DNA of 64,000 nucleotides. Origin: Shewanella sediminis HAW-EB3 (GTDB lineage Bacteria; Pseudomonadota; Gammaproteobacteria; Enterobacterales; Shewanellaceae). The notes under the pieces are model-generated. The model did not search any database. It saw only the letters and a program-made list of their open reading frames with translations, and was not told the origin of the DNA. Positions 5,686 to 27,572 of the stretch are shown one piece after another. The stretch's first letter is position 1, and each line of letters opens with the position of its first letter. The position numbers and the translations under genes were made by a program. The stretch is taken from positions 2,976,001 to 3,040,000 of the forward strand of contig NC_009831.1 of NCBI RefSeq assembly GCF_000018025.1, written 5' to 3'.

Positions 5686-5742
5686 CGAGGCACGAGATAC
5701 CGATCTTATAACTGGAACCCCAGAGTTCAATTCCATGTCCTT
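5686..5742 (-). pseudogene. Decayed tRNA-Ser copy 2
   Basis: A weak remnant in the same register as the next copy (unit length 100 bases). GAGGCACGAGATAC corresponds to the 3' acceptor strand, and GGAACCCCAGAGTTCAATTCC to part of the T arm. It is recognised mainly because the following terminator and spacing repeat exactly. Confidence 0.5.
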
Positions 5743-5750
5743 TTAAAACG

Positions 5751-5781
5751 AAAAAGCCCCTAACATTGCTGTTAGGGGCTT
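5751..5781 (-). terminator. Intrinsic terminator in tRNA-Ser array (distal)
   Basis: In minus-strand reading AGCCCCTAACAGC pairs with GTTAGGGGCT, followed by TTTTT. It repeats the architecture of the terminator at 5852-5880, one 100-base unit away. Confidence 0.75.
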
Positions 5782-5791
5782 CATCTGAATA

Positions 5792-5840
5792 TGGCGGAGA
5801 GATAGCTGATTTATACAAAAGGAACCCTAGGGTTCAACTT
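5792..5840 (-). pseudogene. Decayed tRNA-Ser copy 1
   Basis: It begins with a perfect copy of the last 14 bases of tRNA-Ser (plus-strand TGGCGGAGAGATAG at 5792-5805), followed by an insertion and scrambled T-arm sequence (GGAACCCTAGGGTTCAAC). It sits exactly 100 bases from the intact gene. It could alternatively be an attachment-site remnant, since a short tRNA 3'-end fragment is the usual mark of an integrase-made junction. Confidence 0.6.
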
Positions 5841-5851
5841 CTGACTATACG

Positions 5852-5880
5852 AAAAAGCCCCAGCATTTCTGCTGGGGCTT
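5852..5880 (-). terminator. Intrinsic terminator of left tRNA-Ser
   Basis: Minus-strand reading gives AGCCCCAGCAGAAATGCTGGGGCT followed by TTTTTC, 12 bases after the tRNA CCA. Confidence 0.8.
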
Positions 5881-5891
5881 CATCTTAAATG

Positions 5892-5982
5892 TGGCGGAGA
5901 GATAGGGATTTGAACCCTAGATGGGCTACAAACCCATGCCGGTTTTCAAGACCGGTGCATTCGACCACTCTGCCATCTCTCC
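5892..5982 (-). tRNA. tRNA-Ser (UGA), left copy
   Basis: A 91-base class II tRNA with encoded CCA and acceptor GGAGAGA/TCTCTCC. The anticodon arm CCGGTCTTGAAAACCGG reads UGA. It has a long variable arm and T arm TAGGGTTCAAATCCCTA. It is identical base for base to the copy at 17210-17300. It has its own promoter (5994-6022) and terminator, so both copies are probably expressed. Confidence 0.95.
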
Positions 5983-5989
5983 GAACGAG
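5892..5989. repeat. 98-bp direct repeat, left (island boundary)
   Basis: Perfectly identical to 17210-17307. It covers the whole tRNA-Ser gene plus seven bases upstream of its 5' end; identity stops abruptly on both sides. Between the two copies lie two tyrosine recombinase genes, so this is most simply the left end of an integrated element. Confidence 0.85.
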
Positions 5990-5993
5990 CGAT

Positions 5994-6022: not shown

Positions 6023-6148
6023 TACCTATCTTACCACCAGCCAATTGAATGCTCATTTGAGCATCAAGTTGATGTCCAATTGTCCAAAGTGACACACTTT
6101 GAATGGCTATTGTTCTTAATAGCCTAACCTACAACACTAAAGTGGTGA

Positions 6149-6583
6149 TCATTCAGGCATGGTTTCACCTGAACCACCGGCTTCACTCGGCATATCTTTC
6201 ATTTTCGGTAAACCGTCTTTAATAGGTAAAACACTTTCTTGATAATGAACATGAATACCCGGCTCAAACTTAAGTGATGGAATACTTGCAGCAAATACAT
6301 CAATTAAATTCATTGTCGGGTGTTCAGTCATAATGTGTCCGCCACATTCACTACACCATTTGCGCGTACTACCGGGAGTCTTATTAAAGCTGGAAATTTT
6401 ATCGGCACCGGCAGTGATGCTAATAGCTTCGGGCTCCCATAGGGTAAATGCATTTACAGGTCCTGCCGACCACTTTCGGCAAGATTCACAGTGACAATAT
6501 CCCATGCCATTTGGTGTACCCTTAACAGTAAATTGAACCGCTCCACAGAAACAGCTACCTTGAAAACTTGGTTTCGCACTCAT
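6149..6583 (-). CDS. GFA/CENP-V family zinc-binding protein
   Basis: A 144-residue protein of the glutathione-dependent formaldehyde-activating-enzyme fold. It has the characteristic zinc ligands: CFC near the N-terminus (SCFCGAVQF), CHCESC about 25 residues later, and CSECGGH in the C-terminal half. Most family members of this size are of unknown substrate; the formaldehyde activity is established only for a few. ATG at 6583 is chosen because AGAGGA lies eight bases upstream and homology starts there; the frame extends further upstream without a ribosome site. Monocistronic, at the left end of the island. Confidence 0.8.
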   Translation of the reverse strand: MSAKPSFQGSCFCGAVQFTVKGTPNGMGYCHCESCRKWSAGPVNAFTLWEPEAISITAGADKISSFNKTPGSTRKWCSECGGHIMTEHPTMNLIDVFAASIPSLKFEPGIHVHYQESVLPIKDGLPKMKDMPSEAGGSGETMPE

Positions 6584-6782
6584 AATGTCATCCTCTATAT
6601 AGCGTAAGATTATTGATAAGTGCTTTGAAGTGTAGTCTAAGAGGGGGCAATTTAAAGAAACTCGCAACTGCAGACTTGCTGTGCTGGCTTCCGACAAAAA
6701 TGCGCTTAGCTTTGCCGTTGGTAGAAAGGTTTCTTCGTTGAACTATAGCCACAATGACTATCCGTCGATGCCCCCCTAATCC

Positions 6783-7505
6783 TCATAGTAAACTAAGCTT
6801 GCCGGCCTCATGAACCAGTTGTGCCGTATTTCGTGCGTTCAAGGTCTGTTTGAGCACTGAGAGGTGATAATCCACTCCCCGCAGAGTCAGGTTAAGCAGC
6901 GATGAGATCTCCTCTCTATCTGCTCCGTTGGCAAGGTGGGTCAGTATATAAGCGGAAATTGGACTGATGATGTTGTAATCAACTAAGGGGTTGATCTCAA
7001 TTCCATGATGAAGTGCAATTTTGGTTTGAAGACGACTCAAGTAGACCTCTACCTCATCAATCCTGCCCAGCAGATCGCTCACCTGTTCTGATTTATGCAG
7101 TATTAGATTAAACCGCCCCGTCAGCTGAGGTGAGACGGGGCATGAAACTGAAACTGTCACTATGCCTTCTATCTGTTGGCTATCCAGATATCGCTTCATT
7201 CCGCGAGGCAGTGTCCTATTGGACCACACACAAACTGAATGACTGTAGAGCTGGCCAACGACCTCCTCCATATTCTTTAAAAACAATACCTTTTGCCGCC
7301 ATAAGCTTAGCCCCTTCAGCGAGCTTGCGAATAACTTACGACGTTTAGTGAAGTTGCGGATCAGATGTTTATGACTGCCCATTTTCCGCCCCCAATCTGA
7401 GGGGGTCTGAATATCATAGCAATAACAGATCTCATCTACCTGAAGGTCTTTACACCCTTGTTGCAAAAAAGAGCTCAGCGCAGCGGATAACGGTACCTGA
7501 GTCAT
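6783..7505 (-). CDS. LuxR-family transcriptional regulator
   Basis: A 240-residue protein. The last 65 residues form a divergent LuxR/FixJ-type helix-turn-helix (ISPISAYILTHLANGAD, then EEISSLLNLTLRGVDYHLSVLKQTL). The N-terminal 170 residues resemble an autoinducer-binding-like or unknown sensor domain but lack recognisable acyl-homoserine-lactone contacts. There is no synthase gene nearby, so it would be an orphan regulator. It lies 63 bases after the zinc-ribbon gene and on the same strand, suggesting an operon. Confidence 0.65.
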   Translation of the reverse strand: MTQVPLSAALSSFLQQGCKDLQVDEICYCYDIQTPSDWGRKMGSHKHLIRNFTKRRKLFASSLKGLSLWRQKVLFLKNMEEVVGQLYSHSVCVWSNRTLPRGMKRYLDSQQIEGIVTVSVSCPVSPQLTGRFNLILHKSEQVSDLLGRIDEVEVYLSRLQTKIALHHGIEINPLVDYNIISPISAYILTHLANGADREEISSLLNLTLRGVDYHLSVLKQTLNARNTAQLVHEAGKLSLL

Positions 7506-7568
7506 ATCTCCTCCCCTCTTATCATTGCCACTATAACATTTGCTTTCCAGACTACAGATAACTACAAC

Positions 7569-8213
7569 TTAACCGCTGCCACCTGTTTTTAGCTCGTCAC
7601 TCGATGGCTGCAGACGACACTTGAACACCTGTTGTTGCTTATGCTTAATGCGGTGTAAAAGTTGCTTTGACACCTCAAAAGCACTTCCCTCAAGTGGTGC
7701 CTGCAGTGGCTCCTCAGCCTCCTCGAAGTCACCAAGCTGCCTTAGCAACTCCGCAGCCAGTAACCTCTCCTGCACAGAATTCATATCCAGTATCATCAGC
7801 AGATCTTTCATATTACTTCTCTCTCGAGCGCTCCACTCGACCGGAATTGTCTTTTCACGGCGATACTTATGGTTTGCCAACTGCCACAAGTTCAGCCGAA
7901 TATACAACTGATGCTCTGAGGGTTGCTGACCATACCTCTCGAGCAGGAGCCAGAGTCCCTCTTCATCCAAAGCGAGATATTTAAGTGCGCTGTCAGCACT
8001 GTTAAACGCAGATGTTTTCAACTCGGGCAACCATACTTCGGCTTTGCAGTGTCCACACTTAACGAGCAATGGCTGCTGTGGAACCATAGGACTATCGACA
8101 TAACCATCACTCCACAGTGTTGCAGTTCGTGCATTCACTTCGAGTAACGGCCGAAGAGTGAGGCTACCACCACAATGGTTACACTCTTTGTAAATCTCTG
8201 TTCCATATTTCAT
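7569..8213 (-). CDS. Zinc-ribbon hypothetical protein
   Basis: A 214-residue protein I do not recognise. The N-terminus has two CxxC knuckles (CNHCGG near residue 11 and CGHCKA near residue 53), as in a zinc ribbon. The rest is helical and charged with Leu-rich stretches (LWLLLERYGQQ, LLAAELLRQLGDFEEAEEPL) that could be TPR-like. It is the first gene of a probable pair with the LuxR-type regulator. The IS3-family element begins 110 bases upstream and may have displaced its original promoter. Confidence 0.5.
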   Translation of the reverse strand: MKYGTEIYKECNHCGGSLTLRPLLEVNARTATLWSDGYVDSPMVPQQPLLVKCGHCKAEVWLPELKTSAFNSADSALKYLALDEEGLWLLLERYGQQPSEHQLYIRLNLWQLANHKYRREKTIPVEWSARERSNMKDLLMILDMNSVQERLLAAELLRQLGDFEEAEEPLQAPLEGSAFEVSKQLLHRIKHKQQQVFKCRLQPSSDELKTGGSG

Positions 8214-8322
8214 GATTTAAAACTCCAGTACGTTAATCCCCCTGCAAACACCATTGGCCATTACCGACCCAGCACAGGCTTGCGCCGAAGGTGATATCGA
8301 CACAAGCCAAATGTTCAGGGTT

Positions 8323-8350
8323 TGGTAAGCCCCTAGAACAGTAGACACTT
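8323..8350. repeat. IS3-family left inverted repeat
   Basis: Starts TGGTAAGCCCCTAG and ends TAGACACTT. It pairs with 9529-9556 with a few mismatches in the middle. Confidence 0.88.
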
Positions 8351-8387
8351 CATAGAGTTATAATGGACCAAAAATATGAGGTGTTAC

Positions 8388-8681
8388 ATGCGCGGAAAAC
8401 GATATCCCGACGAGTTCAAAATCGAAGCAGTTAAACAGGTCACAGAGCGTGGTCACCAGATCGCCGATGTGGCAGAAAGATTAGGCGTCACTCCCAAAAG
8501 TTTGCACAACTGGATTAACAAGTTTGATAAGCCAGAAAAGCAACACATCACCATTGATAATCAGCAAGACGAAATACGTAAACTGAAAGCGGAACTACGT
8601 CGGGTAACCGAAGAGAGAAATATCCTAAAGGAGGCCGCCGTGTACTTTGCAAGCGAGTCAAAGAAAAGTACACGTTCATAA
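8388..8681 (+). CDS. IS3-family transposase OrfA
   Basis: A 97-residue DNA-binding subunit. The helix-turn-helix (KRYPDEFKIEAVKQVTERG, QIADVAERLGVTPKSLHNWI) is followed by a leucine-zipper-like coiled coil (EIRKLKAELRRVTEERNILK). ATG at 8388 is chosen because GAGGT lies five bases upstream; an in-frame ATG at 8376 lies before that site. The end of the frame contains AAAGAAAAG (8660-8668), a plausible slip site for making the OrfAB fusion transposase. Confidence 0.9.
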   Translation: MRGKRYPDEFKIEAVKQVTERGHQIADVAERLGVTPKSLHNWINKFDKPEKQHITIDNQQDEIRKLKAELRRVTEERNILKEAAVYFASESKKSTRS

Positions 8682-9538
8682 AGTCCAGGCTCAAGCAATA
8701 TCCTGTCAGAACCCTGTGTCGAATACTTGATGTTCACCACAGTGGCTTCTATGCGTGGCTAAAGGAGCCTTTGAGTAACCGAGAAGCTGAAGATAAAAGA
8801 TTGCTAGGTAAGATTAAGCAATTTTGGCTGGAGAGTGGCTGTGTGTATGGTTATCGAAATATTACATTGGACCTCAAGGATGACGGTGAATCGGTTGGTA
8901 AAAATCGTGTGCATCGCATTATGAAAGCTGCTCAGATTAAGGCTGTACGAGGCTATAAGCGTAATCCAAGCTTTGGTGGTGGCGATGTTAGCCATACAGC
9001 ACCAAACACGCTAAATCGTGGCTTTGATGTCGCTAAGCCTAACAAAGTTTGGGTGACCGATTTTACTTATATCCGCACCCATGAAGGTTGGTTGTATCTA
9101 ACTGTTGTGATCGACCTATTCTCACGACAAGTTGTCGGTTGGACGATGAAAAGCACACCTAAGGCGGACTTGGTTATTGACGCGCTATTGATGGCGATAT
9201 GGCGACGTTCTCCGACCGAAAAGGTACTGATACATTCCGATCAAGGTGTGCAATATACCTGTTCAGACTGGCGTAGTTTTCTTAAAGAACACAACCTTGA
9301 AGCAAGTATGAGCCGCAGAGGAAACTGTCATGATAACGCTGTTGCAGAGAGCTTTTTCTCACTCCTAAAGAAGGATAGAGTTAAGCGAAAAGTCTACAAA
9401 ACCAGAGACGAAGCACGCTCTGAAATATTTAACTATATAGAATATTTCTATAATCCAGTTCGACATCATGGTAGTAATAACGGACTGTCTCCGATGAAGT
9501 TCGAAAAGCAGTATTTTGAGAAACTAGAAAGTGTCTAG
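8660..9538 (+). CDS. IS3-family transposase OrfB (DDE integrase core)
   Basis: Catalytic part of the transposase, read in the -1 frame relative to OrfA from about the AAAGAAAAG slip site. The rve-type DDE residues are seen in VWVTDFTYIRT (first Asp), LIHSDQGVQYT (second Asp) and DNAVAESFFSLLKKD (Glu), with the typical 35-residue D-E spacing. The N-terminal HTH_21-like part (CRILDVHHSGFYAWL) precedes the first TTG at 8771, so the biological product is probably the OrfAB fusion. No internal stop is seen, so the element may be active. Confidence 0.88.
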   Translation, partial: KEKYTFIKSRLKQYPVRTLCRILDVHHSGFYAWLKEPLSNREAEDKRLLGKIKQFWLESGCVYGYRNITLDLKDDGESVGKNRVHRIMKAAQIKAVRGYKRNPSFGGGDVSHTAPNTLNRGFDVAKPNKVWVTDFTYIRTHEGWLYLTVVIDLFSRQVVGWTMKSTPKADLVIDALLMAIWRRSPTEKVLIHSDQGVQYTCSDWRSFLKEHNLEASMSRRGNCHDNAVAESFFSLLKKDRVKRKVYKTRDEARSEIFNYIEYFYNPVRHHGSNNGLSPMKFEKQYFEKLESV

Positions 9539-9556
9539 ATAACTAGGGGCTTACCA
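9529..9556. repeat. IS3-family right inverted repeat
   Basis: Its reverse complement starts TGGTAAGCCCCTAGTT, matching the left terminal repeat. It ends immediately before CTTTTGTAAGC. Confidence 0.88.
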
Positions 9557-9754
9557 CTTTTGTAAGCATCTGAGATTACAGGTTAATTTTTTTACTAACA
9601 AGTGTAAACGCGCACAGTTTGAGCAACTTTCCTCAAAAGTTGCGTTTGCCACCACCTTCGACAAAGAGTCATAAGACCACAGGTAGACAAGGTTTACCGC
9701 GGCACTCTCAAAATTTGTTAGATACAACAGAGGGGTGATGTCGGTCAGTTCCAT
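9557..9754 (-). pseudogene. Cassette ORF cut by the IS element
   Basis: Starting at ATG 9754 the frame reads MELTDITPLLYLTNFESAAV and runs about 60 residues to the IS end, then a few IS-derived residues before a stop. The start lies about 55 bases after the attC-like site at 9810-9872, as expected for a cassette gene. The 3' part and its own attC have apparently been lost to the IS insertion. No family recognised. Confidence 0.4.
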
Positions 9755-9809
9755 CGTCAGGTGTTCTACAGAACTTTACTCATTAGCTATGGTATGGCAA
9801 ACAGATATG

Positions 9810-9872
9810 CGGTAACGCTAGCAACAACGGGCCAGACGAGTGTAACTAGCAGCCTGATTGCTCTTGTTATGT
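9810..9872 (-). repeat. attC-like site D
   Basis: A 63-base imperfect palindrome. In minus-strand reading the outer boxes are ACATAAC and GCGTTACC, and inner AGCAA pairs with TTGCT. The stop codon of the upstream ORF (TAA at 9867-9869) falls inside the first box, a typical cassette feature. The core GTTACC departs from the GTTRRRY consensus, so the site may be degraded. Confidence 0.4.
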
Positions 9873-10193
9873 GTCGGAGTCACAAGCAAAAACAGACTCA
9901 TGCCAGTATGCTTCCCTATTACCGTAGAACCACGACTCATTCTGTTTACTTCTAAACTGTGCCAATGCCTTCATTGGAATGCCGTATCTGTTAAAAAGTG
10001 CGATGAACTCCCTTAGTGGCTCGTCACTTAAACAATCACTTTTCAACTCCACATGTAATTCCAGACCCTGGCCAAATACATTTATTACATCTTCGATACT
10101 CGTTAACCAAGAAAAGAATGCAGTTTCGTCACCTTGCGAACCATACGCGATTGCATCAATTATAAGTTCTTTCATCTTGTCTCTACTTGACAT
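9867..10193 (-). CDS. Cassette-encoded hypothetical protein
   Basis: A 108-residue soluble, acidic protein. The central block ELHVELKSDCLSDEPLREF and YGIPMKALAQFRSKQNESWF resembles small cassette or immunity-type proteins I have seen in Vibrio and Shewanella, but I cannot name the family. Its stop lies inside attC-like site D. ATG at 10193 is used; M7 at 10175 is possible. It lies between attC-like sites C and D, as the fourth cassette of the cluster. Confidence 0.55.
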   Translation of the reverse strand: MSSRDKMKELIIDAIAYGSQGDETAFFSWLTSIEDVINVFGQGLELHVELKSDCLSDEPLREFIALFNRYGIPMKALAQFRSKQNESWFYGNREAYWHESVFACDSDT

Positions 10194-10221
10194 GGGCTAG
10201 ACACATTATGCCTCATTACGA

Positions 10222-10290
10222 GGATAAAAATTGTGGGCTAAAATACGAGCGAAGCGAGATAGTCCGTTTTTTTTAGCACTTTTAAATGAC
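10222..10290 (-). repeat. attC-like site C (degenerate)
   Basis: In minus-strand reading CATTTAAAAGTGCTAAAA pairs, with one bulge, with TTTTAGCCCAC around an inner hairpin CTCGCTTCGCTCG. The outer box ATTTAAA looks like a mutated ATTTAAC, and the right core lacks GTT. The inner CGCTTCGCT block is shared with site A. It is probably a decayed attC behind the permuted acyl-carrier ORF. Confidence 0.35.
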
Positions 10291-10301
10291 TTGTATGTGA
10301 A

Positions 10302-10565
10302 TTACCCCATACCCAAGTCGTTTACAAAATGAGACTTAAGGTTTATTTCATTAGCAGGAATATTAAAATCTCGATAAAGAAAACACTTTACTGTTTCGTA
10401 AACTTCTTCAAATTCAATTTCATTCCCATTTTGCATTTCACAAGCATTCGCAACGTAAACTACAAAGTTACCTACAACAGCTAAACCTTCTAAATCTTCA
10501 TCTGGTAAAGTAATCGAATAATGCTTTTCAATAGATATAATAAACTCGACAGCATCTAGACCCAT
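10302..10565 (-). CDS. Acyl carrier protein-like ORF, halves in reversed order
   Basis: An 87-residue ORF. Residues 1-38 (MGLDAVEFIISIEKHYS, IPDED-like LPDEDLEGL, VGNFVVYV) match the second half of an acyl carrier protein. Residues 55-87 (VYETVKCFLYRDFNIPANEI, SHFVNDLGMG) match the first half, ending exactly where the phosphopantetheine site would begin. Joining end to start through the shared ATGGG gives DLGMGLDAVEF, a nearly normal ACP core without the attachment serine. ATG at 10565 has AGGT nine bases upstream. Either a circular permutation of a cassette gene or the residue of a tandem duplication. Function unknown. Confidence 0.55.
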   Translation of the reverse strand: MGLDAVEFIISIEKHYSITLPDEDLEGLAVVGNFVVYVANACEMQNGNEIEFEEVYETVKCFLYRDFNIPANEINLKSHFVNDLGMG

Positions 10566-10581
10566 TGCAATTTACCTATTC

Positions 10582-10642
10582 ACATAACTCCTAGCTCATC
10601 GGGAGCCGCTTTTTGGCGATCCGGTGCTGCGCCTTGTTAAAT
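10582..10642 (-). repeat. attC-like site B
   Basis: A 61-base site. In minus-strand reading it starts ATTTAAC (fits the inverse core) followed by AAGGCGC and ends GGAGTTATGT, where GTTATGT approximates the core. GATCGCC-AAAAA-GCGGCTCC forms a weak inner stem. The upstream membrane-protein ORF ends within it (TGA at 10596-10598), as usual for cassette ORFs. Confidence 0.5.
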
Positions 10643-10973
10643 GGTGCTTTATAGGACGTTCAAACCACCAGTAGAGCACCAAGACTAATACGAAGTAAAC
10701 TGTATTACTGACAAATATAAACCAACCGAATACTAGTGCAGGAAAAACCAAATAGCTACGCCTGTTAATGTATACACAAATCGCTATAGACAGAAAAACG
10801 AGAGGAACCATTAAATATGCGCTAGTAATAATGATTGGGTAAAACACACTGTCTTGATCAAAGAATGATTGCCAACCAGCATACGTCACTGGAAGGTTCG
10901 GTAAGATAACGTAAGCAGAGTATAATGCTACAAGTGTTATGCTTGCTGCGATTAGTTTATTCGGTTTAAGCAC
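10596..10973 (-). CDS. Cassette-encoded membrane protein
   Basis: A 125-residue hydrophobic protein with about four predicted membrane helices (ITLVALYSAYVILPNLPV; YPIIITSAYLMVPLVFLSIA; SYLVFPALVFGWFIFVSNTV; VYFVLVLVLYWWF). Its C-terminal 16 residues (HHLTRRSTGSPKSGSR) are translated from the attC-like site itself. The start is GTG at 10973 with AAGGAAG six bases upstream. No family recognised. Second cassette of the cluster. Confidence 0.6.
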   Translation of the reverse strand: MLKPNKLIAASITLVALYSAYVILPNLPVTYAGWQSFFDQDSVFYPIIITSAYLMVPLVFLSIAICVYINRRSYLVFPALVFGWFIFVSNTVYFVLVLVLYWWFERPIKHHLTRRSTGSPKSGSR

Positions 10974-10985
10974 AATACTTCCTTA

Positions 10986-11065
10986 CCATTTAACGACGCC
11001 AGTAGGGGCCTAAAAACCAGAGCGAAGCGGCGGTTTTTAGGCCCCTCTGGCCGACCTTGTTAGGA
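10986..11065 (-). repeat. attC site A (best example)
   Basis: An 80-base site. In minus-strand reading: TCCTAAC (inverse core), a long stem CCAGAGGGGCCTAAAAACC pairing with GGTTTTTAGGCCCCTACTGG, the apical GCTTCGC, then GTTAAAT (core GTTRRRY). The upstream ORF stop (TAA, 11060-11062) is inside the left box, and the next ORF begins 15 bases after the core. This has all the structural marks of an integron attC. Confidence 0.75.
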
Positions 11066-11560
11066 GCCAACTGCAAATACACTATAGTCATAAGTGATCG
11101 GCTCATGATTCCCCCCCCACTCTTCGACTAAAAATGAATCATTTAAGTATATTGGTAAATCATGATCAGTCTTAAGATTGCGAGCGGTTACTCTAAATTT
11201 TATTCGAGGTTTAAAATCCAAAAAACAATTTTTACACTTTTCTACAGCGACTATTTCAAGCCGTAGCCCTGCCGGAATAGTTGTTCGCGACTTTACAAAC
11301 CTATTATCGGTTCCGGGTGGCAGTGAAAATGAGTAAAAAACAGGGTTTTCCACTGTATGATCCTCTTCCGTCCATCCATGGAGGATAACCTTCTCTTTAG
11401 AGGTGACAATTAAACCCACAACTTCAGAATATGGTGTAATGGTACTTACATCATCAAAATCTACGGTCCCATAACCTGAGACCGTAATAGCCGCAATTAT
11501 TATGGTCCCTGAAATCATAGCTACAAGTGCTATCACTATGACTCTAAACAAAATTGTCAT
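11060..11560 (-). CDS. Cassette-encoded secreted or membrane-anchored protein
   Basis: A 166-residue protein with an N-terminal hydrophobic segment (VIVIALVAMISGTIIIAAI) acting as signal peptide or anchor. A beta-rich domain follows with a CKNC pair near residue 112 (VAVEKCKNCFLDFKPRI). No recognised family. ATG at 11560 has AGGA six bases upstream. The stop codon lies inside attC site A. First cassette-like unit of the cluster on this strand. Confidence 0.6.
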   Translation of the reverse strand: MTILFRVIVIALVAMISGTIIIAAITVSGYGTVDFDDVSTITPYSEVVGLIVTSKEKVILHGWTEEDHTVENPVFYSFSLPPGTDNRFVKSRTTIPAGLRLEIVAVEKCKNCFLDFKPRIKFRVTARNLKTDHDLPIYLNDSFLVEEWGGNHEPITYDYSVFAVGS

Positions 11561-11566
11561 TTAGGA

Positions 11567-11640
11567 TCCTAACCTTTGTATAGTGCGCATTCGGATATAT
11601 TTGGCAAAACGCGTATGCGCACTAAATTAACCTATTAACT
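11567..11640 (-). repeat. Palindrome resembling an attC or attI half-site (E)
   Basis: A perfect ten-base inverted repeat, TAGTGCGCAT (11581-11590) with ATGCGCACTA (11615-11624), lies next to TCCTAAC (11567-11573; GTTAGGA on the minus strand) just before the first cassette ORF. The partner inverse core on the far side is not evident, so it may be a degraded attC, or the primary recombination site. Confidence 0.35.
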
Positions 11641-12002
11641 AAGCCCAATTTTCACAAAACCATTGATTTATAATCACTCTATCAGAGTGATGCTGAAAAA
11701 ACGAGCAAACGTAATCGAAAGGTGCGATTGATACAAAGGTGTTGCCCAGTGCGATCAGCTAGTGCCATTAATGGATTAGTAAAGGTAGGCCAACTGATTG
11801 GTTATTTACCTGTGCAGCATACAAGCTGAAACTCACAATGGGGCATGAACATGTTAGCAAACAGCCCAACCACTTATGGAAAAGAGAGTTAGATCTAGCG
11901 GTCAACATTGATAATTTTCGGGTTTACCCGCTCATAGAAAACCGGAATTGAATAATGACTCTTTAACTGAAAAATCAGACATATGGCTAAACTAGTCTTA
12001 TG
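11641..12002. other. Intergenic region in island
   Basis: No convincing gene. It contains the small inverted repeat CACTCT-ATC-AGAGTG (11675-11689) and a 37-codon plus-strand ORF (11838-11951) without ribosome site that may be debris of a longer frame. Possibly the remains of lost cassettes or an integron platform. Confidence 0.35.
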
Positions 12003-12218
12003 TCATTTATGCAACCGGGTATCAAAATCTGAGTTATACATCAACAGATCTATCCCCTCTTTTGGATTGAGCTTGAGGGCCGAACAGTACTGCACAAATT
12101 CATAGACGTTAAGCTTCCGCTGGCATGTCTCAATTTTTGTGACGATCTGAAAAGGTTCATCAAGAAGTATGCCGACGTCTCGCACAGTCAAGCCTTGCTC
12201 ACGGCGAGCATTTTCCAA
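12003..12218 (-). CDS. XRE-family helix-turn-helix repressor
   Basis: A 71-residue Cro/C1-type DNA-binding protein. The HTH is at about residues 7-40 (REQGLTVRDVGILLDEPFQ, IVTKIETCQRKL), followed by a short dimerisation helix (YEFVQYCSALKLNPKEGIDLL). The start is given as TTG at 12218; the homologous frame extends about 12 codons further upstream (QYESVISW) but has no ATG or GTG, so the true start is uncertain. It is divergent from the small ORF at 12342, and two identical-arm palindromes lie between them. Likely autorepressor or controller of the island. Confidence 0.7.
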   Translation of the reverse strand: MENARREQGLTVRDVGILLDEPFQIVTKIETCQRKLNVYEFVQYCSALKLNPKEGIDLLMYNSDFDTRLHK

Positions 12219-12269
12219 CCAGCTAATTACTGACTCGTATTGGGTATTGTTAATTACTTTATCATAGTA

Positions 12270-12286
12270 GTCCCTATTATAGGGAC
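12270..12286. promoter_or_regulatory. Operator 1 for the XRE repressor (predicted)
   Basis: GTCCCTATTATAGGGAC, a palindrome with six-base or longer arms around a 3-base centre, in the divergent intergenic region. It shares the GTCCC-N7-GGGAC frame with operator 2, centre to centre 27 bases apart. Confidence 0.6.
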
Positions 12287-12296
12287 GACCCGTACC

Positions 12297-12313
12297 GTCC
12301 CCGAATCAGGGAC
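12297..12313. promoter_or_regulatory. Operator 2 for the XRE repressor (predicted)
   Basis: GTCCCCGAATCAGGGAC, again GTCCC-N7-GGGAC. The 27-base spacing is between two and three helical turns, compatible with two dimers controlling both divergent promoters. Confidence 0.6.
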
Positions 12314-12341
12314 AGGATATTGACTTTACATAGAGAGAATG

Positions 12342-12584
12342 ATGCCTAAAGAACACACTCTGCTAGCTCGATGTGGCGCGATGCAAATGATTTTAAATGC
12401 TGAACACGGGTTAAAACCTAACAATGGTGTTTTAGCTTATATGAAATCAGTCAATCACGAAGAGTATAACGATAAATACGACGTTAAAGCCTACTTTAAA
12501 TACTTGAAGCTAATATTCGATACATCAGGTCCTGAAGGGTTACGCCAATTACTCGACATCCCCTATATTCCTGAAATTGTCTGA
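12342..12584 (+). CDS. Small hypothetical protein divergent from XRE gene
   Basis: An 80-residue soluble protein (MPKEHTLLARCGAMQMILNA, then VLAYMKSVNHEEYNDKY). No known family. Two adjacent ATGs (12339 and 12342) follow the purine-rich AGAGAGA; the second has better spacing. It is transcribed away from the repressor gene and its promoter would overlap the two operators, so it is probably under repressor control. Confidence 0.5.
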   Translation: MPKEHTLLARCGAMQMILNAEHGLKPNNGVLAYMKSVNHEEYNDKYDVKAYFKYLKLIFDTSGPEGLRQLLDIPYIPEIV

Positions 12585-12759
12585 TAACAGAGACTCAACA
12601 GGGCTGAATATGATAAGTGATGTTATGGCTAACTGGGAGTACACCTTCTAATCTCTATACACCTTAATTACTGACTAGACAGCCCTGAGAATCTCATGCA
12701 CCAATTTGACCGAGTTGCGTGTAACCCACGGAATTCTATCTCAACATTTTGGTTTATTG

Positions 12760-14349
12760 CTAAACTACTTCAGGGCTTGCCTCATTAGGGGATGTATCAT
12801 TGCTACTGTCATATTCATTAAGCAACACATCGTCCCCTGCTATGTTTAATACTTGAATGCACGCCTGCTCAAGCTCAGGTGTGGAGGCCCCATGTATCTT
12901 AGTGACTATGTTTTTAGCAAACTTTGCAGCCAGCGCATCATTCCCTGTATTTAACGCCTTAGTGCGTGCGTAGATAGCGCTGCACAGCTCAGAAAGGTAG
13001 TTGACAAACTTTGTCTCTAATTTATTTTCTATCTCTGTTTCCAGTTGCTTTACATCATTTGTTAAGCTGTCCTTAGCTACCTGTATTGCATCTAATTCCT
13101 GCTGCCCCTGTATCTTTTGTCTATCAATATTTAACTGAACATTTTCTAACTCTTGATGCTGCTCTACTATCTGGTTTTGAATGTGGGCAAGCCGCTTCTC
13201 TTTAAGCTCTATGCTACGTGTAGCATAGTTGTAAGGTCGCTCCGATTTTGTTTTTTTTGCATCACGATTCAAAATTTTACGTTCTTCGGATTTGCGTTCA
13301 GACTCCGGCGCTATCTCTGCATTTAATCCTTTGTCATTTAATAGATTGTCGTTAACAAAATCAAAAAACATACGCTGAAATCGTTCCCCATGAATAGCGC
13401 TCTGCTCCAACGTCAAAATGCAATTTTCCGGCAGTAGCTCTTCTTCAGCCTCCCCTTCGCTGTCAGCACCAGCCGCCTCTTCATCCTCTATATTTGTTTT
13501 AGCACTAACCTCGCCTGTGGCCTCAGCTACAGCTGCTAAGCGTTTATTTTTCTCGCGTTGATATTGATTCACCACTTCAACCTGGGTTTTGAGTAAGTCC
13601 CAGTTGCCAAAAACAGTTTCTTGTCCAGATAAAAAATAGTGGCAGTGAGCCCCCGTCAATTCTTTTTTCTCCCGTTCGTCAGTGTGAACGACCAACGCAT
13701 GAATAGGATAGTTTGGGAAATGGTGAGTTAAAAATGCTTTGGTAAAGTCGATAAAGTCCTGTGGGCTAACGATATCACTACCAACCTGCCAACGGTGTGG
13801 AATCTTCAGGATCCCTTCCTGCACATAAGTAGCATTTTTATTGGGCCTGGAGTCAATGAGCTTGTTGTGTGCCTTGATAAATGTCTTTATCATCTCTATT
13901 CGCTGCTTATGTCGATTCATGACCATCATTTCTAATGCAGCAAGTTTGCTCTCCTTGATATGTACATCATCTGAAATCCCGATAAGATCCCATAACAAAT
14001 CTGCGGCATCATCATGGCCATGTATACGCTCGACTTTTATCGCATTTTGAATTTTTGCTTTGTACTGCCGTCGCTTCGTTTTAACTCGTGACATGTTGGT
14101 GATTTGTTTTGGGGGTACAATCGTATCGAATACAACTTGTTTTTGCTCAGACGTATAGTCATCGAGCGGTCGACATTTGTTCTGGAACCAAAGTAAATTT
14201 CCTCCAGATAATGACTCATCCCATTCAGGCCCTGACTTCTTTTCTGTAAGAATACGAAGCGAGTGGATTAGTGTTTTACGAATTCTTGCCCGGTGCTTCC
14301 CTGTCGTATTCAGATTCATTTGTCGATATAAAAAGCGGATTATTTTCAT
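12760..14349 (-). CDS. MobV/Pre-like relaxase (mobilisation protein)
   Basis: A 529-residue protein. The best signal is HTDEREKKELTGAHCHYF at about residues 222-239, matching the H-x-DE...H-x-H metal-binding motif of Mob/Pre relaxases. An N-terminal segment (HSLRILTEKKSGPEWDESL) resembles MobV motif I. The middle is acidic (EDEEAAGADSEGEAEEE) and residues 385-460 form a long coiled coil. Such enzymes nick a transfer origin and pilot single-stranded DNA, which would make the island mobilisable by a helper. The start overlaps the upstream small ORF by ATGA, implying translational coupling. Sequence divergence is high, so the family call is moderate. Confidence 0.55.
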   Translation of the reverse strand: MKIIRFLYRQMNLNTTGKHRARIRKTLIHSLRILTEKKSGPEWDESLSGGNLLWFQNKCRPLDDYTSEQKQVVFDTIVPPKQITNMSRVKTKRRQYKAKIQNAIKVERIHGHDDAADLLWDLIGISDDVHIKESKLAALEMMVMNRHKQRIEMIKTFIKAHNKLIDSRPNKNATYVQEGILKIPHRWQVGSDIVSPQDFIDFTKAFLTHHFPNYPIHALVVHTDEREKKELTGAHCHYFLSGQETVFGNWDLLKTQVEVVNQYQREKNKRLAAVAEATGEVSAKTNIEDEEAAGADSEGEAEEELLPENCILTLEQSAIHGERFQRMFFDFVNDNLLNDKGLNAEIAPESERKSEERKILNRDAKKTKSERPYNYATRSIELKEKRLAHIQNQIVEQHQELENVQLNIDRQKIQGQQELDAIQVAKDSLTNDVKQLETEIENKLETKFVNYLSELCSAIYARTKALNTGNDALAAKFAKNIVTKIHGASTPELEQACIQVLNIAGDDVLLNEYDSSNDTSPNEASPEVV

Positions 14350-14555
14350 GCCACACCTCTTTGCGAGGTGTGGGCCAAAAACGGGGTTAAGGGCTCCCCC
14401 TTGCCAGCAGCTATCGTTTCATCTTTTGCGTAGCCAAAAGTGTGACGATAGCTTAGCTGGTTAATACCACGGCCCACTTTCACAGCGTGGCCACAATCAA
14501 AGCATGCTCCTGCCAATATCAAAATACATTTTAAGGCCCATATCGAATCAAACAT
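14346..14555 (-). CDS. Small coupled ORF between integrase and relaxase
   Basis: A 69-residue protein: a hydrophobic N-terminus (SIWALKCILILAGACF), then CGHAVKVGRGINQLSY and a polar tail. Its ATG overlaps the integrase stop by eight bases (ATGTTTGA), and its own stop overlaps the relaxase start by four (ATGA). The double overlap is the main reason to believe it is real. No family recognised; it might be an accessory recombination or mobilisation factor. Confidence 0.5.
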   Translation of the reverse strand: MFDSIWALKCILILAGACFDCGHAVKVGRGINQLSYRHTFGYAKDETIAAGKGEPLTPFLAHTSQRGVA

Positions 14556-15708
14556 GAGTCAGGCCTCCCCTACGCTGAACTTTGAATGCACCAGGCAGAC
14601 CTTCACGAAGCGGCCCCATGTTTAAAGCGGAAAATGGACCTTTTGGTTGAAGCTGACTCCAGGTTGATGCGACGATAGTCGGTACCGACTTGCTATCAAA
14701 CGGCTGCTTGACTGACGGTTCAGCAAAAACAGACCCCATAGCATCACTATATTTTGCGGCATTATCTGGTGCGTCACTTTGAAGCCAGCGAGCGTAATGC
14801 TTATCGACCATGTTCGTCGAGTTATGACCAAGTTGTCTCGCAATCCACTCTTTACTAATTCCAGCAGTTAAACACTGACTAGCAAACGTGTGGCGTAATT
14901 GATTTGGACCTCTGTGCTGTACTGAAGCCTTGACTAAAAAAGGAGTGAAGAATGTTTTTGAATACTGCTTAGAGTCGATGAATGGCTTATTGCTCTGAGA
15001 ATTGATAAACAAATGTTGAACACGTCGTTTTTCAATTGTCTTGTTATCATTCTGAAGCACCCGAATAACACGGGGCCTAAGCGAACCAGTGACTTCATAG
15101 TGTTTCTTTAATAGCGCGAATGCGTGCTGATTCATCTCAACAGTTCTGATTGAACTAGTAGTCTTAGGGACTTTGTATTTGCCCAAGACTTTTGCCGTAT
15201 GAACTTTGATTTCTCTCGATTCAAAATCAATACAATCCCAAGTTAGAGCTATGAGTTCACTAATTCGTAACCCTGTTAGCACGCCTAGAAACAGCAGTGC
15301 TTTACCACTTTCACATTGGGCAGGTGTAGCATGAAGCTTTAAAAGCTCTTCACGTCCCAATGGTTTTGGCTCAGCGGTATGTATTTTAAGGTTTTCAACC
15401 CCAGTCATCGGGTTACGACCCAAAACACAATCACTTAATGCACAAGAAAAAATAGCTCTGAGAATTGTAAAATGTTCGTTTATGGTTTTATTGCTAAAAC
15501 GTCGATGAACTTTAATTTTCCACCGTTTTATATCTGATTGGCTTATTGACCTAATTTGTTTTTTGCCAAAAAAACTAACTAAATTTTTAACTTTCGAGCA
15601 CTCACTCACATAGGTTGAATGTGCTTTATCAAACTTGCTCTCTGCTAAATACTGCTTTGCGTAATCGTTAAACTTTTCCATCATGTTGACCATAGGGGCA
15701 AGTGCCAC
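14548..15708 (-). CDS. Tyrosine recombinase (integrase) B
   Basis: Site-specific recombinase of 386 residues. It has an N-terminal SAM-like core-binding domain and a catalytic domain with the full set: Arg in GVLTGLRISELIAL, Lys in VPKTTSSIRTVE, HxxR-type NQLRHTFASQ, His in RQLGHNST and nucleophile Tyr in MVDKHYARW. About 80 extra C-terminal residues are unusual. The GTG at 15708 starts the longest frame; ATGs at 15693 and 15684 are alternatives. It is followed by two overlapping genes and forms a coupled operon with them. Confidence 0.9.
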   Translation of the reverse strand: MALAPMVNMMEKFNDYAKQYLAESKFDKAHSTYVSECSKVKNLVSFFGKKQIRSISQSDIKRWKIKVHRRFSNKTINEHFTILRAIFSCALSDCVLGRNPMTGVENLKIHTAEPKPLGREELLKLHATPAQCESGKALLFLGVLTGLRISELIALTWDCIDFESREIKVHTAKVLGKYKVPKTTSSIRTVEMNQHAFALLKKHYEVTGSLRPRVIRVLQNDNKTIEKRRVQHLFINSQSNKPFIDSKQYSKTFFTPFLVKASVQHRGPNQLRHTFASQCLTAGISKEWIARQLGHNSTNMVDKHYARWLQSDAPDNAAKYSDAMGSVFAEPSVKQPFDSKSVPTIVASTWSQLQPKGPFSALNMGPLREGLPGAFKVQRRGGLTHV

Positions 15709-15828: not shown

Positions 15829-17121
15829 TTAAAATAATTCTGTATAATCAATATCGTATGAAATGATATCTACGTATTTTTTTAATAGAGAAATTTTGTA
15901 TTTTTTTCCATATCTACCGAAAGTTATGTTCTGGTTTTTGTGCCCAACCAGCTCTGCAACAATGTTTTCGTCAACCTCATGCTGTTTCAGCTCATCTACA
16001 AACGTGTGCCTGAAACTGTAAGGTGTCGGCCTAGCACCCGGCTTCATTCCAATTCGATTCTGCATTCGCCCGAAATATTGACAATATTGGCGACTCCAAT
16101 CCTCATTTTGATTACTTGGAATATAGTTAAACAGCTGCACTCGTTGGGCCTGGCTAGCTTCCTTAACAAGCTCAATAAAGCCATGCTTTAACAGAAAATG
16201 ATGAATAGGCAGAATACGAAGAGATGAGGCATTTTTCACTCTCCGCTTCTCGCCCCCATTATTAATCTTGATACAATAAAGTCCTTCTTGTTTAATAACG
16301 TCTGCGGTACGTAATTGGCAAGCCTCAGACGGTCGCAGCCCTTGAAACATCATCAGCAATGTGGCCCACTTGAAGTCGTTTTCAGCCTTTTGAAACTCTT
16401 CATGACTAAATAAGGCCTGTAAATCTCTTTTCTGCCAGCGCGTTCGCGCTGAATTAGGCTCAACCAGGGAGTGCTGCTTAAGTGTGATCAATGCGAATGG
16501 ATTAGCGTCAGTGAACTGCATTAGGCAACACCATTTAAAGAGCTGTGACGACGCAGCAAGATAATCCTTATTGGTTTTGTGGCTTCTTCCCTCGTCGAGT
16601 AACAAATCTCTATAGCCAAGCGCACAAGCGCTCGTGACCTCATTGGTGAAATCAGGTTTAATGGCATCAATAAAATGACTAATACGCTGATAAAGCTGCT
16701 GTACTGTTAAAGTGCGCACCCCTTCCTTGCTTTTAGAGCTAATGAACATCTCTAAAGCAAGCTTAAGAGGAACTTGTTCGCATTGTTTAACCGCTAAGTT
16801 CGGTCCCCTTACCTCGATTTTACCCTTTGTGGCAAAACGCAGTGGAACGCCTTCAGCAGAGACGTCACTGAAACTAAGTCGAACTGCATCAATTTGTTTA
16901 TTTAGTGAGGATTTGAATTCACCTGAAACAGTTTCTGTCGTAATTGAATCCATTGCTTGATTAACAGCCAAAATAACCCGTAAATTTCGTTTTTTGGCGA
17001 TGGCTCTAGTTTTCGTTAACAAGGAAATTTTTACATCAAAGGGAAAACCCATATCTCTCAAAGACTTTGGGTAGCAAATACGTGTGTAATAGGTGCAATT
17101 TGGAGCGCGGAATAAGTGCAT
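15829..17121 (-). CDS. Tyrosine recombinase (integrase) A
   Basis: An integrase of about 430 residues adjacent to the right tRNA-Ser repeat, with its start pointing towards it, the usual position for the enzyme that integrates at that tRNA. Catalytic residues: Arg in MMFQGLRPSEACQL, SFRHTF in place of HxLRHTF, His in AELVGHKNQ and Tyr in ITFGRYGKKY. The N-terminus (MHLFRAPNCTYYTRICYPKS) is typical of one branch of island integrases, so ATG at 17121 is preferred over TTG at 17133. It lies 120 bases upstream of integrase B. Confidence 0.9.
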   Translation of the reverse strand: MHLFRAPNCTYYTRICYPKSLRDMGFPFDVKISLLTKTRAIAKKRNLRVILAVNQAMDSITTETVSGEFKSSLNKQIDAVRLSFSDVSAEGVPLRFATKGKIEVRGPNLAVKQCEQVPLKLALEMFISSKSKEGVRTLTVQQLYQRISHFIDAIKPDFTNEVTSACALGYRDLLLDEGRSHKTNKDYLAASSQLFKWCCLMQFTDANPFALITLKQHSLVEPNSARTRWQKRDLQALFSHEEFQKAENDFKWATLLMMFQGLRPSEACQLRTADVIKQEGLYCIKINNGGEKRRVKNASSLRILPIHHFLLKHGFIELVKEASQAQRVQLFNYIPSNQNEDWSRQYCQYFGRMQNRIGMKPGARPTPYSFRHTFVDELKQHEVDENIVAELVGHKNQNITFGRYGKKYKISLLKKYVDIISYDIDYTELF

Positions 17122-17168
17122 TGTCTCAGTCAATCCTGTAGGACTGTTCCGAAATGCTTCAGATACAA

Positions 17169-17195: not shown

Positions 17196-17209
17196 TCTCG
17201 ATTTTAATA

Positions 17210-17300
17210 TGGCGGAGAGATAGGGATTTGAACCCTAGATGGGCTACAAACCCATGCCGGTTTTCAAGACCGGTGCATTCGACCACTCTGCCATCTCTCC
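17210..17300 (-). tRNA. tRNA-Ser (UGA), right copy
   Basis: Identical to the gene at 5892-5982: 91 bases, anticodon UGA, encoded CCA. Its upstream region (17314-17340) is outside the direct repeat and carries its own promoter elements, so this copy is on the chromosomal side of the island. Confidence 0.95.
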
Positions 17301-26742: not shown

Positions 26743-26819
<77 letters not shown>

Positions 26820-26879
26820 ATTCTTTGATTGAAAGAATCAAAACTTCAATTCATTCATCTAGTGTATAGGTCATCCGGG

Positions 26880-26956
<77 letters not shown>

Positions 26957-27016
26957 ATTCTTTAATTGAAAGAATCAAAACTTCAATTCATTCATCTAGT
27001 GTATAGGTCATCCGGA

Positions 27017-27121
27017 CGCGGGATGGAGCAGTATAAAAGCTACTCGGACTCAACTCTTTATTGAAACAAGGCGAAGGTCGTTGCCCTGCTTTAATAAAAA
27101 GTAATCCAGCTCCCGCAACCA
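27017..27121 (+). pseudogene. Decayed tRNA-fMet, insertion-bearing
   Basis: Both acceptor ends are intact (CGCGGGATGGAGCAGTAT and CCAGCTCCCGCAACCA), but the anticodon arm is broken (no CTCATAA loop) and extra sequence (TTGCCCTGCTTTAATAAAAA) interrupts the T arm. It is 105 bases long and cannot be an initiator tRNA. Confidence 0.85.
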
Positions 27122-27171
27122 ATTCTTTAGTAGAAGAATGAAAACATCTATTGGACTTTAATAAAAACAGT

Positions 27172-27248
<77 letters not shown>

Positions 27249-27304
27249 ATTCTTTGATAGGAGAATCTAAACATCTATCAGACTTTTATTATAAAAAGTA
27301 CAGT

Positions 27305-27381
<77 letters not shown>

Positions 27382-27393
27382 TTTTTAAAGAAA

Positions 27394-27445
27394 GTCGAAG
27401 GTCGTTGCCCTGCTTTTATAGAAAGTAATCCAGCTACCGCAACCA
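27394..27445 (+). pseudogene. tRNA-fMet 3' fragment
   Basis: GTCGAAGGTCGTTG, then the same CCCTGCTTTTATAGAAAG insertion seen in the other decayed copy, then TAATCCAGCTACCGCAACCA. The 5' half is absent. Confidence 0.75.
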
Positions 27446-27495
27446 ATTCTTTAATAGAAGAATGAAAACATCTATTGGACTTTAATAAAAACAGT

Positions 27496-27572
<77 letters not shown>

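Follow-up and report, generated by a model that had tools for sequence, protein, structure and literature searches.

How do small islands that lack transfer genes pass from one bacterium to another? The question is raised by a locus at a tRNA-Ser(UGA) gene of Shewanella sediminis HAW-EB3, which we analysed within a stretch of 64,000 nucleotides (NC_009831.1, positions 2,976,001 to 3,040,000; from here on the window). The window appears to carry a portion of a small mobile island, with two recombinases, a distant relative of relaxases and a folded DNA signal. Judging from the sequences compared here, this is likely a relaxase-encoding integrative and mobilizable element (IME), accompanied by hitchhikers that carry a matching origin of transfer (oriT) but no detected relaxase gene and would be mobilised in trans. 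We surveyed 41 distinct loci with the relaxase-like gene, after removal of three duplicates. The features of the window are as follows:

17210..17300, minus strand: tRNA-Ser(UGA), found with ARAGORN; presumed integration site, with IntA beginning right at its 3′ end.
15829..17133, minus strand: IntA, a tyrosine recombinase of 434 amino acids (aa; PF00589, 56.4 bits), presumed tRNA-Ser integrase.
14548..15708, minus strand: IntB, a 386-aa tyrosine recombinase (PF00589, 72.2 bits) paired with the relaxase-like gene.
14346..14555, minus strand: 69-codon open reading frame (ORF; 69 aa), probably no protein (detected in 7 of 41 loci; third codon positions not markedly enriched in substitutions).
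14373..14466, minus strand: two-hairpin structure, candidate oriT (strong match of model R1, 84.7 bits; covariation; folding z −4.64).
12760..14349, minus strand: 529-aa MobV/Pre-like protein, presumed relaxase (weak Mob_Pre match, conserved motifs, comparison with MobV profiles).
5892..5982, minus strand: second tRNA-Ser(UGA), a resident tandem copy (same pair in the relative G013).
6068..12759, no strand: region that must contain the distal end of the island (flank comparison with G013, Pfam, repeat search).

Starting from the tRNA-Ser(UGA), the order on the minus strand is IntA, IntB, the 69-codon ORF and the 529-aa ORF. IntB and the 69-codon ORF overlap by ATGTTTGA, and the 69-codon and 529-aa ORFs by ATGA, as a preliminary description of 12760..15708 had reported. 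The same description proposed an integrate-and-mobilise module without conjugation genes. This agrees with our Pfam scan, in which an integrase accompanies the relaxase-like gene and no conjugation family was matched among 14 window ORFs. It had overlooked IntA and the tRNA-Ser site, both outside 12760..15708, as well as the relaxase-less sister islands described below.

The HTDE...HCH motif noted earlier was found at residues 222-237 of the 529-aa ORF, whose numbering is used throughout, and the C-terminal half of the protein is indeed long, helical and coiled-coil-like. The protein thus carries the MobV/Pre motifs HxxR...N (motif I) and HxDE...HxH (metal site). In the alignment of the family, H29, R32, N51, H222, D224, E225 and H237 are kept in all 31 rows and H235 in 30. 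When 14 homologs of a plasmid protein were added and L048 and L051 excluded, H222, D224, E225, H235 and H237 were kept in 43 of 43 rows, R32 and N51 in 40 and H29 in 39, three rows being truncated there. The earlier comparison with MobV/Pre enzymes held for the motif residues but not for the family profile: Mob_Pre (PF01076) gave the window protein 15.4 bits (E 0.017) at a curated cut-off of 25.5. The homologs L036 and L042 reached 17.3 and 19.0 bits, and at E up to 1 the profile matched 5 of the 31 family members (best 9.6e-4). The NCBIfam models gave zero matches for the 529-aa protein. Because PF01076 was present in 2 of 185 genomes of the class, both poor references, the MobV references were drawn from plasmids (9 of 35 matching records). 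All nine proteins have H..R....D....N and H.DE...H, in the same order as the family. The full-length family profile scored 45.9 against them, whereas column shuffling gave at most 21.4 in 60 controls and profile reversal 24.2; motif I of the family aligned with MobV solely under a forced full alignment. A profile search of the PDB returned no relaxase among its matches, which were mostly coiled coils (best E 0.2). We call the 529-aa protein MobV/Pre-like, not a member of MobV.

Among the best 8000 candidates scored in the protein database, at least 16 were homologs, the closest (98% identity) from Shewanella canadensis. Genome contigs yielded 20 named loci with homologs, in Shewanella, Photobacterium, Vibrio and Aliivibrio. 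Counting the own genome in both sets, the gene was present in 9 of the 145 relatives scanned and, at the level of the order, in 14 of 394 genomes; a class-level search of 274 genomes found it in the own genome only. No relatives were found in phage records or IMG/VR. In L049 (2711-6103), an insertion resembling a transposase operon splits the relaxase-like gene in two. One branch of the family (P0018-P0031) comes from contigs that measure about 2-12 kb and are likely small plasmids; among its members is a cluster of 25 that contains entries from Vibrio parahaemolyticus.

The 3998-bp Vibrio plasmid pSTUT-A16-2, typed as non-mobilizable by MOB-suite, encodes a homolog as well. HUH-type motifs and a hairpin next to the gene would also suit a rolling-circle initiator. 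The large protein would then start replication of the excised island or plasmid, not its transfer, with the hairpin as double-strand origin. We consider this unlikely, since pSTUT-A16-2 has its own, separate replicase (PF03090), the closest family resemblance of the protein, though weak, is to Mob_Pre, and the hairpin is also present in islands without the gene.

What, then, is the folded DNA signal? In L022, L029-L031, L033, L042, L043 and L079, IntB and the relaxase-like gene are separated by 166-235 bp that include strongly conserved palindromic DNA, and comparable DNA lies upstream of the homolog on pSTUT-A16-2. In the window, a pattern scan placed the palindrome within the 69-codon ORF, of which the hairpin forms the 3′ half. 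In total, 24 aligned sequences (23 distinct) fold as two adjacent hairpins, with 96.4% of cells paired and double changes at 12 of 23 pairs. The covariation score was 0.416, compared to 0.05-0.14 for slid versions and a mean of 0.154 over 500 shuffles; the structure was derived from the tested alignment itself, which is a bias in its favour, and one of five measures, the count of further pair types, was no higher than in the shuffles. Single-sequence DNA folding of five hairpins gave z between −4.1 and −7.2.

Model R1, built from these 24 sequences including that of the window, detected the hairpin in 33 of the 41 loci with E values of 1.4e-9 or better; 24 of the 33 are in the model. In every one of the 33 loci, which include pSTUT-A16-2, the hairpin lies on the strand of the relaxase-like gene, upstream of it in 25 and downstream in 8 (seven at 565-1273 bp past the gene, and in L048 after a fused ORF). 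We read this hairpin as a candidate oriT. In the window, the strong match of model R1 lies at 14373-14466 and not in 12585-12759, where the preliminary description had suggested looking for a nick site. A plasmid search with the hairpin DNA returned pSTUT-A16-2 itself, a 35-base match on an Aeromonas plasmid (E 0.1), a known Photobacterium element and nothing else. In the nine MobV plasmid loci, two weak matches below significance (L077 and L076) sit immediately upstream of mob genes.

The preliminary description took the 69-codon ORF for a small protein. Its substitutions are spread 4/4/5 over the three codon positions between the window and L023, and 19/16/24 between the window and L024; the corresponding counts for the relaxase-like gene are 4/6/14 and 188/137/321. 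The remaining 19 pairs likewise lacked a marked third-position excess in the ORF. Because of this pattern, and because the ORF is rare and the hairpin occurs elsewhere without it, the ORF is probably non-coding; it would be transfer-origin DNA rather than a protein. A different explanation is that the hairpin, which in 25 loci shortly precedes the start codon, is an RNA regulator of the translation of the relaxase-like gene, or that the ORF, open with coupled start and stop in its seven loci, is a real coupling or leader peptide. However, G-U cells are absent from helices 1, 2 and 4, with one in helix 3 and sixteen in helix 5. Because G-U cells are almost absent from helices 1-4, the structure suits DNA over RNA. 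Moreover, the hairpin is downstream of the gene in 8 loci and gene-free 28 times, Rfam gave zero matches to it, and the ORF has no coding signature. A function as RNA or peptide is therefore very unlikely.

The IntB gene was found upstream of the relaxase-like gene and on the same strand in 29 of the 41 loci, within 235 bp in 27 and at about 1 kb in two, and on the opposite strand in L038. Of the gene triplet in the preliminary description, the integrase-relaxase pair thus recurs outside this genome; the small ORF was detected in seven of the 41 loci. In L048 (8131-11001), IntB and the relaxase-like gene form one 956-aa ORF; we do not count it as a designed fusion, since the genes overlap with a slightly different length than in a relative, and a frame change there may account for the long ORF. 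The IntB residues R148, K182, R272, H295 and Y305 are invariant in 32 of 32 rows, two of which are IntA proteins. By alignment, IntB is probably an active second recombinase, and in its gene context it accompanies the relaxase-like gene, not the hairpin. A covarying hairpin adjoining a tyrosine recombinase whose catalytic residues are all kept could also be a recombination site of IntB that is folded from a single strand in the manner of integron attC, with the large protein merely supplying single-stranded DNA. We give hardly any credence to this idea, as pSTUT-A16-2 and the relaxase-less islands have the hairpin but no IntB, and L032, L036, L040 and L041 have it together with the relaxase-like gene but no detected IntB. 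Over 20 loci, the protein distances of the relaxase-like protein correlated with those of IntB at r 0.81 and with those of IntA at 0.72; for the two recombinases the value was 0.78, and 0 of 2000 permutations reached any of the three. This fits a common descent of the module, and equally a shared host history.

IntA follows tRNA-Ser(UGA) in related islands both with and without the relaxase-like gene. Among the former, the tRNA beside IntA was tRNA-Ser(UGA) in 18 of 18 distinct loci, window included. In 10 of the 18, which do not include the window, a repeat of the tRNA 3′ end (24-37 bp, with one mismatch in two cases) delimits an island of 8.1-13.3 kb, with IntA and the relaxase-like gene inside it. 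No closing repeat was found in seven loci; the sequence available downstream is shorter than 10 kb in five of these and longer in two (L028, L047).

For the window we tried two candidates for the far end. The tRNA at 5892-5982 was ruled out, as in G013 the same tandem pair, two tRNA-Ser(UGA) genes about 290 bp apart with flanks matching the window, exists without an island between them. An 18-bp tRNA fragment at 5788-5805 was ruled out as well, since a matching stretch occurs in the island-free G013. Because the 5892-5982 copy is a resident tRNA, the distal end of the island must lie within 6068-12759, a region that also contains an IS3-type insertion. In the window (5700-5990 and 17203-17300) and in L151, the tandem tRNA-Ser(UGA) genes lie between a uvrY and a Lon-like/fabA side. 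Decayed tRNA-end fragments occur near such tandem genes, likewise in the island-free G013. An island without a recognisable far end and with an IS3-type insertion may be a decayed genomic island, in which the module is a relic, the hairpin a mere repeat and the whole currently immobile. We regard this as quite unlikely: the ORFs are unbroken, the catalytic residues and the pairs of the hairpin are conserved between genera, and three species have a sister island in common (94-96% identity). Even so, the copy in the window may be immobile.

To what extent does the hairpin occur without the relaxase-like gene? Model R1 matched in 14 of 145 relatives and in 15 of 384 genomes of the order, two overlapping sets in which stricter filters lose weak matches. 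Of the 43 distinct hairpins, 15 adjoin a relaxase-like gene and 28 do not; the hairpin was also found in 8 of the 9 relatives that carry the gene. All 28 contexts were inspected, up to about 10 kb in either direction and frequently over a shorter stretch where a contig ended. IntA is immediately upstream in 21 of them (broken in L196), which are islands or pieces of islands; in 16 of the 21 the far end is marked by a repeat of the tRNA 3′ end, and these 16 islands measure 3.3-8.1 kb. The repeat is 19 bp in L184 and 30-44 bp, with some mismatches, in the others. L187 and L196 have no closing repeat, and L185, L186 and L192 are pieces without the tRNA. L194 and L219 are tandem islands, in which a second hairpin lies between repeated att sites, apparently without an IntA of its own. 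Other hairpins are located near a tRNA without IntA (L198) or near contig starts (L199, L200), or are weak matches (L201). In L222 (2713-3971 of a 4.9-kb contig), the hairpin lies beside a 346-aa protein with an HMH motif, a coiled-coil-like tail and no Pfam match; this contig may be a small plasmid that encodes a different HUH protein.

The islands L188, L197 and L218, from three Shewanella species, share 94.0-95.6% identity over at least 97% of the longer island. The left flanks of L188 and L218 show 81.4% identity over 3050 bp, and the other two pairs have no alignable flank above 500 bp. This likeness is the best evidence in our analysis that an island lacking the relaxase gene moves.

We also looked at the cargo. 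In the window, Pfam identified candidates in 6068-12759, namely a GFA-type enzyme, a LuxR-type regulator and an acyl-carrier-like protein. Ten cargo or neighbour proteins of other loci, hand-picked as likely defence genes and not a sample, were compared with PADLOC. Matches were GajA (765 bits) and GajB (801 bits) in L047, a type IIG restriction enzyme in L183 (555 bits), OloA in L050 (385 bits), a cytosine methylase in L043 (277 bits) and a ThsA-like SIR2 protein in L190 (108 bits); three ATPases had mixed family matches and one protein was unmatched. The defence genes of L047 and L050 presumably belong to the island, whose far ends were not recognised. Ten further proteins were scanned with Pfam, among them an RHS-repeat protein in L220 and a reverse transcriptase in L217, which lies at 10588-11520 in a relaxase-less island (RVT_1, 90 bits). 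Elsewhere in the window, five consecutive tRNA-Met genes are located at 26743-27572 on the plus strand.

How could such islands move? IntA would insert the island at the 3′ end of tRNA-Ser(UGA) and excise it from there. The 529-aa protein, as a relaxase of a divergent MobV/Pre-like family, would nick the hairpin oriT, which in the window is embedded in the probably spurious 69-codon ORF, and pilot the strand through the mating pore of another conjugative element, the helper. IntB might circularise or resolve the transferred DNA, or serve a second target. Islands of smaller size, which have an IntA and an oriT like these but no relaxase gene, would be mobilised in trans. We infer nicking, transfer, the helper and mobilisation in trans from features that were obtained computationally: the gene order, the att repeats of ten relatives, the motif conservation, a covarying hairpin linked to the gene, the relaxase-less sisters and the three-species island.

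Several results weigh against this mechanism. The Mob_Pre score is below the cut-off and NCBIfam is blank. The hhalign probability for MobV was 60% for the full length, 64% with the plasmid branch and 35% for the domain alone. P0021, a homolog of the plasmid branch, has an asparagine in place of H29, the presumed catalytic histidine. IntB was undetected in 10 of the 41 loci, and model R1 found no hairpin in 8 of the 41 (L034, L035, L051, L086-L090), nor a significant match in the nine MobV plasmid loci (best E 0.08). Six hairpin-bearing relatives had no detected relaxase-like gene in the scan of 145 relatives. In 6068-12759 of the window no tRNA-end repeat scored 14 or more, and the far end of the island was not found. 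In addition, the own genome has no PF02534 coupling protein, and the helper would therefore come from elsewhere or be of another type.

In a wider sense, the islands could form a two-tier system of marine Gammaproteobacteria, in which tRNA-Ser islands with an untyped relaxase and dependent minimal islands spread anti-phage genes between species. The minimal islands would be the larger set and would share attachment site, integrase type and hairpin oriT with the relaxase islands. We favour this view by a modest degree; because H29 is not invariant in the plasmid branch, the odds of a novel relaxase family and a two-tier system are slightly lower. If true, it would give a testable answer to how transfer-gene-free islands move for one chromosomal site in marine Gammaproteobacteria. 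It would also provide a searchable hairpin and a relaxase family that lies below the Mob_Pre cut-off and goes unrecognised by MOB typing on a plasmid. OriT-only islands, some with Gabija-, restriction- or SIR2-type defence genes, would then depend on that relaxase. The locus is moreover an example of a small ORF beside a relaxase-like gene that is more likely transfer-origin DNA than protein.

How does the locus compare with known systems? Literature searches, in which subscription papers and preprints were mostly outside reach, gave no recognisable description of this relaxase-like element family in titles and abstract beginnings. With the Gamma-mobile-trio (GMT) it shares a tyrosine recombinase within gammaproteobacterial islands, but IntA scored 28.9 bits at a GmtY cut-off of 340, and the other Gmt models of NCBIfam gave zero matches among six ORFs scanned; we do not count it as a GMT. 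The strand-biased circularizing integrative elements (SE) are described, in the available part of PMC10214605, with the order intA-tfp-intB-srap, a 6-bp footprint and no HUH enzyme, and also appear in the accessible text of PMC9345347. As far as these sources go, the window resembles them in its gammaproteobacterial host, in the presence of two tyrosine recombinases and in an accessory protein that ends in a C-terminal coiled coil. In contrast to SE, it has no tfp or other gene between IntA and IntB and has an HUH-type motif, and its relatives integrate at tRNA-Ser with repeats of at least 24 bp. Compared by the gene order and features in the available part of PMC10214605 only, the window does not belong to the SE.

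Likeness to MOBV/Pre (PF01076) lies in the motif order, HxxR...N and then HxDE...HxH, in the coiled-coil C-terminal half, in the gene-adjacent hairpin and in the mob position that a family homolog occupies on a small plasmid. The oriT hairpins of MobM are treated in the part of PMC5863519 available to us. The window protein differs in its sub-cut-off score, its lack of an NCBIfam match and an insertion between the residues of the second motif; furthermore, pSTUT-A16-2 is non-mobilizable by MOB-suite and the nine MobV plasmid loci lack a significant hairpin match.

The closest concepts are those of IMEs. According to the accessible text of a 2017 review, the canonical relaxase-encoding IMEs described by then included none from Proteobacteria (PMC5704250), and the classes iMOB and iOriT already exist as concepts, as the available part of PMC11389934 indicates. 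Like the elements of these classes as described there, the window has an integrase, a presumed tRNA target, a relaxase-like gene, an oriT-like hairpin and no conjugation genes seen in the 14 ORFs, and its oriT-only sister islands resemble iOriT elements. It differs from both classes, as far as that description extends, in a second recombinase that is tied to the relaxase-like gene and in a relaxase family that is untyped so far.

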